The notes beneath the pieces were generated by a model, which worked only from the letters and a program-made list of their open reading frames with translations, was not told the origin of the DNA and did not search any database. Shown piece by piece: positions 2,011 to 21,234 of a DNA stretch of 21,691 nt (positions are counted from its first letter, which is position 1; each line of letters starts with the position of its first letter). Position numbers and translations under genes: made by a program. The DNA is taken from IMG/VR virus record IMGVR_UViG_3300037502_001699, positions 1-21,691 of that record. One strand, 5' to 3'. The stretch comes from a virus.

Positions 2011-2937
2011 ATGACTCTGAGAGAGCTTCTGCGGGATCGGATCGCGCCACTCAAAAACCTGAGCGATCGGTCGGTTGTCATGTACGAGGCCACGCTAGAC
2101 AGGCTCAGGGACTACCTCGGCCACGAGCCAACGGTTGACGACCTGGACGACCTAACGGCGGCAAAGTTTCTGCGGTGGCGGCAGACCACACAGCACAGCC
2201 GCTACAAGATGATTTCACCGGCCAGCCTGGCCAAAGACTCCGCCCACCTTCGCAGCCTGTGGACGTGGCTGGCCAAGAAGCGGTGGAAGAAGTCCAACGG
2301 CGAGCTGCTCGAGTTCCCAGACTACGCCCGCCCCCGCGTCCCAAAGCCCCGCCCTGTGGCCTATACGGCCGAGGAACTTAGCGCCATGGTCCGAGCCGCC
2401 CGGCACCGCAAAGGGCTTGTAGCCGGCAAGCCAGCCGCTTGGTACTGGCTGACGAAGCTGCAGGCCATGTTCCAGACCGGCGAGCGGATCGGGGCCGTGC
2501 TGGCTCTCCGGTGGCGTGAGGTTGACCTAGAGCGATGCACGCTCACCTTCCTGGCTGCCACGCGCAAGGGCCGCCAGGAGACGATTACACGGGCGATCAC
2601 GCCAGAGCTGGCCCGCCTGATGGCCACGCAGAAAGGCCCACCAGACGCCCTCGTATGGCCTTGGCTGGAGGACCGGAAGATCCTGAGCTGCTACGCCTCG
2701 CTCAAGGTGCTGTGCCGCACGGCCGGTGTGCCGTACCACCCGTTTCACAGCATCAGAAAGGCGACGGCCTCTTACCTCAAGAAGGCGGGCAAGTCGGCCA
2801 AGAAGCAGCTGGGCCACAGCAGCGAGGAGATGGCCGAAACCCACTACTATGACGAACGCATCACGGGCGTTGAGTCGGCACTAGATTTCCTGCCGCCGCT
2901 CGACCTGAGCGCGCCACCAGAAAAGCCTAGTGCGTAA
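2011..2937 (+). CDS. int: Tyrosine-type site-specific recombinase (phage integrase)
   Basis: Would catalyse integration and, with an excisionase, excision of the phage genome. The 308-residue protein has an N-terminal SAM-like core-binding domain (about 1-105) and a C-terminal catalytic domain. The full catalytic set is visible: Arg159 in TGERIGAVLALRW, Lys186 in ATRKGRQ, His246 and Arg249 in HSIRKATASYLKKAG, His269 in LGHSSEEM, and Tyr279 or Tyr280 in THYYDE. Length is normal for the family. The ATG follows GGGAGGG, which is held in a leader hairpin. It is the first of two rightward genes, opposite to the rest of the phage, and faces away from an HTH gene that may be its directionality partner. 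No att core could be identified by eye. Confidence 0.93.
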   Translation: MTLRELLRDRIAPLKNLSDRSVVMYEATLDRLRDYLGHEPTVDDLDDLTAAKFLRWRQTTQHSRYKMISPASLAKDSAHLRSLWTWLAKKRWKKSNGELLEFPDYARPRVPKPRPVAYTAEELSAMVRAARHRKGLVAGKPAAWYWLTKLQAMFQTGERIGAVLALRWREVDLERCTLTFLAATRKGRQETITRAITPELARLMATQKGPPDALVWPWLEDRKILSCYASLKVLCRTAGVPYHPFHSIRKATASYLKKAGKSAKKQLGHSSEEMAETHYYDERITGVESALDFLPPLDLSAPPEKPSA

Positions 2938-15097: not shown

Positions 15098-15293
15098 GGC
15101 GTCCTCGTTTGCGTGGGGTGGCGTCGGCCGTCTCGGCCTGGTGCTCAATGGCGGCCGTCTCAATCAGCGTGGCCTGGTTGTCTTCCACAGCAAGCCGCTG
15201 GGCGACCAGCTGTGTGGCGAGCCCGCCAGGGATCTCCACAACCTGCCCGGTGCGGTAGCCACGCCATGAACGGACAAACCTCAGTTTCTTCAT
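15054..15293 (-). CDS. Small head-region protein
   Basis: A 79-residue protein starting MKKLRFVRSWRGYRTGQVVE, coupled by ATGA to the glycosyltransferase. The 'F-x-R-x-W-R-G-Y-R-x-G-x-V' N-terminus is common in small proteins located between the capsid and gp6-like genes of siphophages. The C-terminal third is Pro/Arg/Lys-rich and probably disordered. Function unknown; a minor head component is likely by position. Confidence 0.65.
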   Translation of the reverse strand: MKKLRFVRSWRGYRTGQVVEIPGGLATQLVAQRLAVEDNQATLIETAAIEHQAETADATPRKRGRRAVPKPDTPDAAGR

Positions 15294-16024
15294 TCCGGGG
15301 CACTCCATGCAGACTCTGGCGGCTTTTGCGTTTGCGTGTACTGGTTGGCCCACTGAAAGACAGGCTTGCTCAGATCCTTGCCTGGCCACGTCACGACGTA
15401 CTCGCCGTGGCCGATGCAGACCCGTGGCGTGACGTACACCTTGTTGCCGCTTTCACACCAGTTGGACCAGAACCAGATATCTGGGTCGCGCCGGCCGTCG
15501 TTCCATGAGCCATCCGGGCTTGGCTTGCTCCAGAACCACGGCTTCTTGGCTCGCTTCAGCGCCGCCGTGCTCAGGATCGTGCAGCCAAAATGTGCGGTAT
15601 CTACCTCCTGCACAGGAGCCTGGAACCACTCCTTTGGCACGGACGTGGTGCCACCCTCTGGCGGATTGTCCAGGCATCCCTTTAGTGTGAGCATCGGGCG
15701 GCCGTCTTCCCGCTTCGTCTGCAGCGGAGCCAAGGCGTCGCATTGGAACGTTAGAGCCAGGGCAAAGAGGTGCTCGATGTCGGCCTGCGAAAAGAACGAG
15801 TCGTAGTCGATCAGCAGCAGGTACTCACACTTGTCGATGAACTGCTCAAAAACTCGCGTGTTTACTTGGTCCCAGAACACGCCGGTGCCCATCGTCGGCC
15901 GGATGCCCAGCGGCATCAGGGCCTGAGCCCACGCGAAGTGGTTGGCCGTGAAGCTCAGCCGAGGCATCGACAGGCACGCCTCGACCCGAATATCCACCTC
16001 GCTGCTGCCCACCCGAACGATCAT
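15290..16024 (-). CDS. GT-A-like glycosyltransferase inserted in the head module
   Basis: A 244-residue protein with a GT-A-type feature: a hydrophobic strand ending in a DXD motif, YLLLIDYDSFFSQADIEHLF (Asp73 and Asp75), preceded by a helix-rich N-terminal half (RLSFTANHFAWAQALMPLGI). The C-terminal half contains Trp/Pro-rich substrate-side elements (WFWSKPSPDGSWNDGRRDPD and following Cys/Tyr/His). The nucleotide-sugar transferase role is inferred from the DXD motif. The ATG at 16024 follows GAGG located in the terminator tail of the capsid gene. It is an accessory gene in a normally conserved gene order and is coupled by ATGA to a structural gene. Substrate may be the capsid, another virion protein, or host surface sugar. 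Confidence 0.65.
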   Translation of the reverse strand: MIVRVGSSEVDIRVEACLSMPRLSFTANHFAWAQALMPLGIRPTMGTGVFWDQVNTRVFEQFIDKCEYLLLIDYDSFFSQADIEHLFALALTFQCDALAPLQTKREDGRPMLTLKGCLDNPPEGGTTSVPKEWFQAPVQEVDTAHFGCTILSTAALKRAKKPWFWSKPSPDGSWNDGRRDPDIWFWSNWCESGNKVYVTPRVCIGHGEYVVTWPGKDLSKPVFQWANQYTQTQKPPESAWSAPE

Positions 16025-18306: not shown

Positions 18307-19585
18307 CGGCGGTGTCCTCCTCTTCGGCCTGGTCTTCGGCGTCATCGGCCGGGCTGTCTTCCACCTCGGCGGCGGGCTCTGGTGCTGGCGGCTCTTGCCC
18401 CATCTTGTCCAGCGTTGTCATGTTCAACTGCACGAAGTGCTTGTCACCTTCCGGCCCAATCGGGTTGAGGTTCTCGGCCTCGCGGATCTCGTTAATCGTC
18501 ATCCAGCCGTTCTGAAGCGCCGACACATAGAACGCAGCCCGGCTTGTGTGGTCGCCACGCAGAAGACCGTTGACGTTGTGCTCGGCAAAGTACCGCTCGT
18601 CGTCCACGATTAGGTCGCGGCTGATGGCGGCTTCCCATCGCTTTAGGTGCGGCAGCAGGCAATGCTGCACAAACTCTGTGCCCTGCACTTCGATGTTGTT
18701 GTATGTGCTGCGGTCCAGTTGTTGAATCAAATGAGGAGGAACGCGGAATATCCTGCAGCACTCGATCGCGCTAAAGACCCGGCTTTCCAACATCTGCGCA
18801 GACTCATTGCTGCCGCTGAGCTCTTTGGCAGAAACGCCCGCAGGGAGCACGGCTGTTCTAAAAGCTTTGTCGCTGCCTCTGTGCATCCGCTCCCAGTTTT
18901 CACGAAGCCTTTCTGCGGCCTCCACAGGAATCGGATTGCTGCTCTCAAGAATGACGCCTGGCCTCGCGTTGTTGCCAAAATACGTCGACGCATGCGACTC
19001 AAGCGCCTGCGCCAACCCAATCACATTCTGGAACAGCCGGTACGTCGGGATCGGCTTCACGCCGTCCTCGGTCGTGAATCGCAGGGCGAAGATCTGCTCC
19101 TGCGAGTAGGTCGTGACCTTGCCGCTGGGCTCTCGGTACTTGTACCGCAGGCGGCCGTCTTCCAGCCGCTCGGCTTCCATGCGGCTGCTGTGCAGCGGCC
19201 ACAGTTCAGAGACCGCACCTCGAGCACCTGGCCGGATCTCGGCGTAGCTGGCACCGTAGTGCAGGTACATGCCGGTCATCCAGTCTCGAAACTCTTGGGC
19301 CGTCTGCCACGGGTTGGGCTGCATGTGCAGCAGGCGGTAAACCGGATGCGTCGGAGCCTTGGCCTTTCCGCCGTTGGCAAGCCGTTCGTAGACGTGGAGC
19401 GGCAGAGCCGAGACAGCGTCCGAGATCACCCGAATGCAGGCCGTGTAGGCCGAGCACGCCATGCTGTTGTCAGCCGTCACCCGCACGCCGGCTAGCGTCC
19501 TGCTTCCGTTGCTGGCGTCGGCCCAGTCGATGCCGCGCAGGTCGAACATCTTGAAGTCGGCAACGGAAAGCTCGGTGTCGCTCAT
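18296..19585 (-). CDS. Phage portal protein (HK97 type)
   Basis: A 429-residue protein forming the dodecameric portal for DNA entry and exit. Family features run in order: AYTACIRVISDAVSALPLHV, PNPWQTAQEFRDWMTGMYLH, GASYAEIRPG, ELWPLHSSRM, then IFRVPPHLIQQLDRSTYNNI, QHCLLPHLKRWEAAI and WMTINEIREAENLNPIGPEG. Residues after about 385 are acidic and disordered (Glu/Asp/Pro/Ala). Length is normal. It overlaps the terminase by ATGA. Confidence 0.92.
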   Translation of the reverse strand: MSDTELSVADFKMFDLRGIDWADASNGSRTLAGVRVTADNSMACSAYTACIRVISDAVSALPLHVYERLANGGKAKAPTHPVYRLLHMQPNPWQTAQEFRDWMTGMYLHYGASYAEIRPGARGAVSELWPLHSSRMEAERLEDGRLRYKYREPSGKVTTYSQEQIFALRFTTEDGVKPIPTYRLFQNVIGLAQALESHASTYFGNNARPGVILESSNPIPVEAAERLRENWERMHRGSDKAFRTAVLPAGVSAKELSGSNESAQMLESRVFSAIECCRIFRVPPHLIQQLDRSTYNNIEVQGTEFVQHCLLPHLKRWEAAISRDLIVDDERYFAEHNVNGLLRGDHTSRAAFYVSALQNGWMTINEIREAENLNPIGPEGDKHFVQLNMTTLDKMGQEPPAPEPAAEVEDSPADDAEDQAEEEDTADGT

Positions 19586-20556
19586 ATGACTGTGATGTCC
19601 CAGGACTGCTCGGGCGGCGGTGCGGTGGCCGTGGCGTGTAGGCCGAGGCCCATAATCAGGGAAACGATGCCGTCAATCCGCTCCGTGCTCTTGGCCTTGC
19701 TGGGCTTAATGTTGCCTTGATGGTCGCTCTGAATCGCCACGTTCGCCGCCATCCACGACAGCACCGGGTGGCTGGCGTGACGCAGCCGCTCCGACAGCAC
19801 GGCGTTCTCAAGCTGGCGGCTAGGGCTCGACATGCTGCCGTATCCCTGTCCAAAACCTACGACGTTTATGCCCTCTCCTTGCAGTTGCGTCGCCAGCTGC
19901 GTGGCGTTCCAGCGGTCAATGCCGATCTGCCGGATGTTGTATTTCTTGGATAACTCAACGATGTCACGCCGGATCACGTCGTAGTCGGTGACGTTGCCAT
20001 CGGTGGCCCTGATGTACCCGTCACGAATCCAGCCGACGTAATCCACTTTGTCACGCAGCGTCCGCTCGGCGGCGTTCTGCTCAGGCACCCAAAAGAACGG
20101 AACCACGTCAAAGGTGCCGTCAGCGTCCTGGCTCACCAGCACTAAGGCCGACAGGTCGGTCGTGCTGGCCAAGTCGAGCCCGGCGTACCACTCGCGCTTC
20201 TCCAGGTCGGCACGCAGCGGGCCGCCGCACTTTGCCCAAGCATCGGGCGACAGCCACCGCACGTCCTGCGTGGTCCAGACGTTGAGCCTGTACCGCAGGA
20301 AGGCGTTGAGCTTGCTGGGGCTCTGGTCCGCCTCGCGGGCATCGGCGGCAAACGACTCCACCGTGATGGTCTCGCCCAGCGACGGGTTGGCCTTGCGCCA
20401 GGTCGCCGGGTCTTTCCAATCGTCTTCTGGCGACGCGGCGTAAATGCACCCAAAAAACGCCGGGTCTACAGTCGGGTCTGCAATGCACCGCTCGGCATAG
20501 GCGTGCTGCTCCCAGCAGATGCTCTTGCGGTCAAAGCCGGCCGTGGTGATCGACAA
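19582..20556 (-). CDS. Large terminase, C-terminal (nuclease) part
   Basis: This is the second half of an interrupted large terminase. From 20601 the frame reads RDALRYGGAARRSPLLLSIT then TAGFDRKS, the stretch following Walker B in Terminase_1-type proteins (ITTAG being the coupling motif). The RNase H-like nuclease follows, with acidic residues in YAGLDLASTTDLSALVLV, QIGIDRWNATQLATQLQ and KSTERIDGIVSLIMG. The frame is open from 20634; the only conventional start before the ITTAG motif is TTG at 20556, with no good ribosome binding site, so separate translation is doubtful. It is in the same frame as the N-terminal part, separated by a single TGA within a 51-nt insert. It overlaps the portal by ATGA. 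Confidence 0.85.
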   Translation of the reverse strand: MSITTAGFDRKSICWEQHAYAERCIADPTVDPAFFGCIYAASPEDDWKDPATWRKANPSLGETITVESFAADAREADQSPSKLNAFLRYRLNVWTTQDVRWLSPDAWAKCGGPLRADLEKREWYAGLDLASTTDLSALVLVSQDADGTFDVVPFFWVPEQNAAERTLRDKVDYVGWIRDGYIRATDGNVTDYDVIRRDIVELSKKYNIRQIGIDRWNATQLATQLQGEGINVVGFGQGYGSMSSPSRQLENAVLSERLRHASHPVLSWMAANVAIQSDHQGNIKPSKAKSTERIDGIVSLIMGLGLHATATAPPPEQSWDITVI

Positions 20557-20601
20557 CAGAAGTGGCGATCGTCTGGCTGCTCCACCGTACCTAAGTGCGT
20601 C

Positions 20602-20652
20602 GCGTGTTTTACCCCGGCCTCCGCCCCCGGCCTCTCAGCCAGGGGCGGAAGC
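20602..20652 (-). repeat. 51-nt in-frame hairpin insert with TGA inside the terminase gene
   Basis: Seventeen extra codons lie between RRLW and DALRYGG of the terminase. The first 36 nt fold as a 15-bp stem with two G-T wobbles (arm GCTTCCGCCCCTGGC at 20652..20638, arm GCCGGGGGCGGAGGC at 20631..20617) and the loop TGAGAG, whose TGA is the in-frame stop. A 15-nt tail, CGGGGTAAAACACGC, completes the insert. Its removal restores an uninterrupted family-like sequence with normal spacing. It resembles a REP/MITE-type palindrome or a translational bypass element; which one is not shown. Confidence 0.75.
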
Positions 20653-21234
20653 CCAGAGGCGGCGGTCCCTTTGTGCGTGGAGTTCATCGAATAGCAGCGC
20701 GTGGATATTCAGGCCCTCGGCCCGAAACGCGTCTGCACTGAGAACCCGGTAAAACGAGTTGCTAGCCTTGTGCACGATGGTCTTCCGGCTGTCGATCACC
20801 TCGAGGTGCTTGGACAACCCCGGCGAAGCCCGCACCATTGACGCCGCCTCGCGGTAGATGATCCCCGCTTGCTCGCGGTCGCAGGCCGCACCGTAGACTT
20901 CCGCCCCCGGCTCCGAGTCGAAAGCCGTCATGTACAGGGCGATTCCGGCCAGCGTCGTGGACTTGCCCTGCTTCTTGGGCAACTCAATGTAGCCGACGCG
21001 GTGCTGCCGCGTGCCGTCTGGGTTCAGCCGGCCGAACAACTCACGCATCACGTGGTGCTGCCACGGCAGGAGGTTGAACGGCTTGCCAGCGTTCTGCCCC
21101 TTGCTGTGCCGCAGGATGTTCTCAAAGAAATGCACGACACGGCGATACCGCCGCTCGCCTTCTTCGCAGAGATCAGGCACCGTGAAGCTTGAAGAACTCT
21201 TCGACTTCGTCGGTTGGCTTTTCTTCCTTGGCAC
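20635..21234 (-). CDS. Large terminase, N-terminal (ATPase) part
   Basis: The packaging motor ATPase half, 199 residues to an in-frame TGA. It shows the adenine-binding region (FNLLPWQHHVMRELFG), Walker A in ELPKKQGKST (Lys91), and Walker B in ALLFDE (Asp183, Glu184) followed by LHAQRDRRLW. It then runs into four insert-coded residues (ASAP), Gly and the stop. Without the nuclease part and coupling motif it should not package DNA alone. The ATG at 21234 overlaps the small terminase by 62 nt. Total length of the two parts without the 17 inserted codons would be 533 codons, normal for Terminase_1-type proteins. Confidence 0.88.
   Translation of the reverse strand: MPRKKSQPTKSKSSSSFTVPDLCEEGERRYRRVVHFFENILRHSKGQNAGKPFNLLPWQHHVMRELFGRLNPDGTRQHRVGYIELPKKQGKSTTLAGIALYMTAFDSEPGAEVYGAACDREQAGIIYREAASMVRASPGLSKHLEVIDSRKTIVHKASNSFYRVLSADAFRAEGLNIHALLFDELHAQRDRRLWASAPG

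Follow-up and report, generated by a model that had tools for sequence, protein, structure and literature searches.

Split terminase gene in the window

The window, i.e. the whole 21,691-nt stretch of viral DNA analyzed here (an IMG/VR virus record of a tailed phage), carries genes for small terminase, portal, protease, head and tape measure proteins, a RecT-like protein, an exonuclease and an integrase. The integrase gene (positions 2011-2937, plus strand) is on the strand opposite to the structural genes; its presence indicates that the phage is temperate. No similar DNA was found in sequenced phage isolates, and the closest cellular terminase, from a Phycisphaerales MAG, was 46% identical.

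The large terminase gene (TerL), on the minus strand, is split by a hairpin of 51 nt that contains UGA in frame; we designate this insert E1 (Table 1). The TerL parts on its two sides, with E1 removed, add up to 194 + 339 = 533 codons, exactly the length of uninterrupted TerL relatives. An earlier reading of the window from sequence only had proposed that removal of the extra codons restores the family spacing, and this was borne out; its coordinates of the insert, of the GGC, TGA and GGT triplets and the 24-nt spacing were all correct. The insert had also been described as hairpin-forming, and indeed the predicted RNA fold of 111 nt around E1 had energy -57.4 kcal/mol (z = -3.06), with none of 200 shuffled sequences equally stable. 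The stem is 17 bp long in the window and 20-21 bp long in relatives, since it reaches into the preceding CTC TGG; GGC-TGA of the window's E1 is placed in the upper part of the stem. The frame preceding UGA reads ...AFAPG (ASAPG in the window, 20638-20652, minus strand), reminiscent of the RAPG-type ribosome arrest motif.

Table 1. Features of the window, and elements related to E1 at other sites (^, boundary of insert)
Feature	Coordinates in window	Strand	Length	Description
TerL upstream part, ATPase domain	20653..21234	-	194 codons	GTG to TGG; Pfam TerL_ATPase 1.1e-16
TGG (W194), candidate E1 take-off codon	20653..20655	-		By analogy with E2-E7 take-off positions; paired at stem base
E1 insert	20602..20652	-	51 nt	Between W194 and D195 of TerL; intact 533-aa relatives lack it, ~40 other contigs have it
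E1 main hairpin	20616..20653	-	17 bp in window	20653-20637 pairs with 20632-20616; loop 20636-20633
GGC, candidate Gly take-off codon in E1	20638..20640	-		TGA (20637-20635) next; GGC in 17/18 variants, AGC in L278
GGT, candidate Gly landing codon in E1	20611..20613	-		9 nt before GAC; 24 nt separate GGC and GGT
TerL downstream part, nuclease domain	19582..20601	-	339 codons	First codons GAC GCA CTT AGG; Pfam TerL_nuclease 3e-45
Second target gene, function unknown	15290..16024	-		Uninterrupted in window; directly after major head gene; in >330 viral contigs
E2			50 nt	TerL AEGL^NIH; GAG GGA CTG^...CTG^AAC; 13 contigs
E3			50 nt	Second gene GAFW^SQV(N); TTC TGG^...TGG^AGC; L080, L132, L134
E3'			51 nt	Second gene, place of E3, ..GAFW^DQCM..; ends TGC^GAC; L069
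E4			47 nt	TerL RYR^LNV; TAC CGG^...CGG (one CGA)^CTC; 5 contigs
E5			50 nt	TerL FDEL^HAQ, at Walker B; GAA CTG^...CTG^CAC; 5 contigs
E6			49 nt	TerL IEL^PKK, directly before P-loop; GAA CTG^...CTG^CCA
E7			51 nt with stop	TerL IEVP^KKN; GTG CCG^...CCG^AAA; few codons before intein

E1 in related terminases

Some of 80 close TerL relatives carry homologues of E1 exactly between W194 and D195, while most are uninterrupted; in pattern scans all of the ~40 insert-bearing contigs other than the window had E1 at this same junction. Presence of homologous inserts at one codon in so many contigs means that E1 of the window did not arise by chance; a sequencing slip and a dead gene can both be dismissed. 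The comparison of relatives suggested in the sequence-only reading produced both the homologous inserts and the intact 533-aa proteins.

The 18 distinct E1 inserts fall into three length classes: 50 nt (six), 51 nt (ten) and 52 nt (two). All three frame relations are therefore present among the variants; the triplet at the stop position is either TGA or CGA, and no variant loses the downstream frame. In a codon alignment of the insert-bearing relatives dN/dS was 0.075 upstream and 0.159 downstream of E1 (dS ~0.8), and the downstream part was open over 300 codons in all 27 insert-bearing relatives. Judging from these codon patterns, both flanks of E1 are evidently translated and under purifying selection. 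The D, A and L codons directly 3' of E1 vary only synonymously. The final codon of the insert is CGC, CGA, AGA or TGA, and 17 of the 18 variants have Arg (CGC, CGA or AGA) at this place; none of the 18 has a TGG landing codon. Pairs of Arg or Asp codons across E1 were considered as well and rejected: their use would remove residues that are conserved, with synonymous variation alone.

Related hairpins at other sites

An all-against-all comparison of loci, along with targeted patterns, revealed related hairpins of 47-51 nt at five other TerL sites and at one site in a second gene (E2-E7 in Table 1). Two of these sites adjoin Walker A and one is at Walker B. With E1 included, the family amounts to at least 35 distinct natural elements, distributed over seven sites in two genes, and relatives with empty sites exist. 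Three contigs carry two elements each: L098 (E1 and E2), L080 (E2 and E3) and L069 (E1 and E3'). In L220 an intein-like insert is seen in the TerL P-loop (KKNGK^ALAIDTPIP...THN^STLL; reverse strand, ~2528 onward), a few codons after E7.

At six out of six E2-E7 sites we saw a form of the element that ends with an in-phase copy of the codon preceding the insert (CTG in E2, E5 and E6, TGG in E3, CGG in E4, CCG in E7); for each of them, joining at the repeated codon yields the protein of uninterrupted relatives. For a phase-blind 3-nt repeat the probability of six in-phase hits is (1/3)^6. Changes of the landing codon within E2 and E4 were synonymous only (CTG to CTA in L237 and CGG to CGA in L226), with the preceding spacer being variable. 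In E3' of L069 the match is imperfect: TGG versus TGC, two of three bases. Before the take-off site of E2 and E4, synonymous positions hardly vary over some 10-15 codons, unlike those after landing; this one-sided fixation is consistent with an upstream signal in the mRNA or the nascent peptide, or with one-sided co-conversion.

The position of the stop codon in the insert differs among the elements: codon 2 in E3 and E5; codon 6 in part of E1 and in E7; codon 9, codon 2 or no stop in E2; no stop in E4 and E6. In none of E1-E7 was a stop found directly 3' of the take-off codon.

Conserved stem

The 14 distinct sequences of E2-E7 share a common 20-bp stem, which takes in the take-off positions; 95% of the cells are paired, and eight pairs are changed on both sides. 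None of 500 shuffles matched any of these measures, and controls with slid alignments collapsed. Many pairs of the E2-E7 stem are G-U in the mRNA sense and would be A-C mismatches if formed by the other strand, which argues that the structure acts as mRNA. A model built from the family without E1 (R1) matched E1 of the window with E = 2.3e-4 and E1 of other records with E-values of about 1e-4 to 1e-9; E1 is therefore a divergent member of the same family. Comparison of the elements with Rfam produced nothing near gathering score.

A stem-loop 5' of the insert, of the kind known in T4, looked convincing by eye as a general feature. It failed against synonymous recodings except in E2 and E7 (z about -2) and E6 (z = -1.4); no such signal was seen for E1, E3, E4 and E5, and the region upstream of E1 was less structured than expected.

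Distribution and mobility

A search with R1 in 97 whole virus records found no intergenic copies; the matches were at the known in-gene sites, with the sole exception of a weak 18-bit match within the open portal frame of L098. Among 392 Planctomycetota genomes there was one weak match, apparently intergenic and outside any obvious long frame. The many intergenic copies by which, in the sequence-only reading, a palindromic repeat would be recognized did not turn up in these records and genomes. An exact 16-mer search of viral contigs returned 13 matches, about the number expected by chance.

On a tree of TerL nuclease domains (102 sequences, 29 of them with E1) the distribution of E1 requires 22 changes, which is close to random; well-supported branches make at least 12 of them unavoidable. 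The tips carrying E4 are mutually separate on the TerL tree, and so are those carrying E5. The window's nearest relatives are 98% identical (with E1) and about 96% identical (without E1). Such patchy presence, together with near relatives both with and without the insert, indicates frequent horizontal gain or loss. We infer that the elements are mobile, with homing-like recombination as the route.

Many relatives (L035:5707, L042:9504, L074:6459 and others) have a different hairpin, strong and with a T-run (GAGCGGGCGGC...GCCGCCCGCTC), after the head gene and before the gene that follows; it looks like an ordinary terminator.

How the interrupted genes may be expressed

From the sequence data we consider it probable that E1-E7 are a family of ~50-nt mobile hairpins which interrupt, within conserved codons, essential genes of a group of temperate tailed phages, and which the ribosome passes over by programmed bypassing. 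The ribosome would arrive at the codon forming the 5' base of the hairpin, release the mRNA while holding the peptidyl-tRNA, slide across 47-52 nt, which would stay untranslated, and restart translation at a codon readable by the same tRNA, thereby restoring the uninterrupted protein. Landing codons that change only synonymously next to a variable spacer, as in E2 and E4, are what re-pairing of the peptidyl-tRNA predicts. The in-phase repeats at all six sites also favor bypassing, since a target-site duplication would be in phase one time in three by chance and exact RNA excision is indifferent to phase; still, a 3-bp target-site duplication would also be able to produce matched codons. Several observations count against bypassing: E1 has no TGG landing codon, its Gly codon pair fails in 4 of the 18 variants, E3' would have to land from TGG onto TGC, no stop directly follows the take-off codon as it does in T4, and a 5' stem-loop like that of T4 stands out in E2, E6 and E7 only. 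By position, and by analogy with its siblings, E1 should take off at TGG, with the exact protein restored. The sequence-only reading had preferred recoding similar to that of T4 gene 60 over a dead gene, and this preference is well supported by the insert lengths, selection, the codon pairs of the sibling elements and the lack of dispersed copies.

The same reading had proposed a specific hop within E1, a sub-case of bypassing rather than an addition to our estimate for the family in general: from GGC before UGA to GGT or GGC 23-25 nt further on, leaving eight extra residues (of AFAPG-KTR type). An in-frame Gly codon (GGN) 9 nt before GAC is indeed present in 16 of the 18 variants, whatever their length class (50, 51 or 52 nt), and the insert ends with a nearly invariant Arg; however, the frame of this Gly is partly automatic because the stem base is G-rich. 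Take-off and landing codons do not agree in L291 (GGC to GAG), L278 (AGC to AGA) and L069 (GGC to GGA), and in L108 an in-frame TGA follows the landing position. Initially 23 of 25 sequences agreed with the hop, but five further contigs lowered its support. Also, the extra residues would fall within a predicted helix, 191-200 (low confidence, mean pLDDT 58), whereas the sibling elements leave no residues and take off from the codon directly before the insert. The Gly hop is thus not established, and we regard it as doubtful. In L278 the GGC of the upper stem has become AGC and, at the same time, the triplet 12 nt before GAC has become AGA, which may reflect covariation or chance.

The main rival to bypassing is RNA excision: the elements could be tiny mobile introns, in which case the hairpin would be cut out and the mRNA rejoined by unknown or host machinery, and the codon matches would be no more than target-site duplications. 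Under this scenario it would be natural that genes with E1 and E3' stay under selection though no matched landing codon exists, that exact removal of E1 gives the 533-aa protein, and that, at the base of the hairpin, the codon preceding the insert is paired with the 3' arm. The want of a consistently matched codon pair in E1 is the best reason for keeping excision open. On the other hand, the elements bear no resemblance to Rfam families, ~50 nt is below the size of known self-splicing introns, and neither in-phase repeats at six of six sites nor purely synonymous landing changes would be expected from a phase-blind cut. We therefore infer that skipping is done by the ribosome and consider excision unlikely, less so than any of the accounts that follow.

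Three accounts that the sequence-only reading had listed as competitors are ruled out as general explanations. The ATPase and the nuclease of TerL could be synthesized as proteins of their own: the domains are separable, with Walker B on one side of E1 and the coupling motif on the other; but the first in-frame start after E1 is usually at least 45 codons in and mostly has no SD, while E2, E4, E5, E6 and E7 cut the gene elsewhere, two of them beside the P-loop, which makes this account very improbable. Just as improbable is a REP/MITE-like palindrome that destroyed the gene; E1 is palindromic, GC-rich and mobile, as such repeats are, but the near confinement to in-gene sites in the virus records, the single weak match in Planctomycetota and the purifying selection 3' of the insert speak against it. 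Read-through of UGA, considered here along with a single frameshift, suits the 51-nt form, which is in frame, and is the least credible of all, since forms of 50 and 52 nt at the same codon, and siblings of 47, 49 and 50 nt, put the downstream part in another frame, so that it could not be the common solution.

Whichever way the inserts are removed, one could speculate, quite tentatively, that there is a class of mobile elements of ~50 nt which encode no protein, lack catalytic RNA and owe their invasion of conserved codons in essential genes of phages to being removed by the expression machinery.

Relation to known systems

In the open-access literature that we searched, no comparable family of elements in phages was found; T4 gene 60, the yeast mitochondrial inserts and the candidate in Hau3 were the cases described. 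For decades, knowledge of efficient bypassing in phages has come from a single well-studied case, T4 gene 60, and a review on bypassing gives few cases outside yeast mitochondria. The family makes it possible to ask what determines the choice of take-off and landing codons, whether the hairpin alone is sufficient, and how such elements originate and spread. It also bears on the extent to which genes with broken frames are mistaken for dead ones in metagenomes; terminases of this kind will be split or overlooked by gene callers. Should removal occur at the RNA level, no mobile introns smaller than these elements would be known; should E1 instead be bypassed with an unmatched landing, this would be a new mode of ribosome landing.

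Mobile introns and inteins of phage terminases likewise target conserved TerL codons, and in L220 a few codons lie between E7 and an intein; unlike them, the elements described here are of ~50 nt and have neither a catalytic RNA core nor an encoded protein. The terminase of Streptomyces phage Hau3 is a candidate for bypassing, linked to UUA decoding (PMC5009743). A suspected bypass in a phage terminase is thus common to Hau3 and the E1 family, though Hau3 is set apart by its description, which includes no family of hairpin inserts.

In mitochondria of Magnusiomyces capitatus 81 inserts are bypassed (PMC5009743). As in that system, the inserts seen here are short, numerous, located in coding genes and tolerated by translation, and the match of the landing codon is imperfect in some of them (PMC5009743); the difference is that here phage genes would be read by ordinary bacterial ribosomes, the hairpins are long, GC-rich and covarying, and sites per genome are few.

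In T4 gene 60 the gap is 50 nt, bypassing is processive below 56 nt (PMC11194080), and the take-off codon is at the base of the take-off hairpin (PMC5009743). The present elements resemble it in having a gap of ~50 nt, not a multiple of 3, in a phage gene (PMC5009743, PMC11194080), a take-off codon paired at the hairpin base (E2-E7) and a constrained upstream sequence (E2 and E4); their gap lengths fall within the processive range of T4 gene 60. The repeated codons of E2-E7 correspond to the take-off/landing pairing of T4 gene 60, from which E1 and E3' depart. Unlike T4 gene 60, where take-off is at Gly, the take-off codons of E2-E7 are those of Leu, Trp, Arg and Pro; a 5' stem-loop stands out in E2, E6 and E7 only, the stop does not directly follow the take-off codon, the stem is much longer, and instead of one case there is a multi-site family in two genes.
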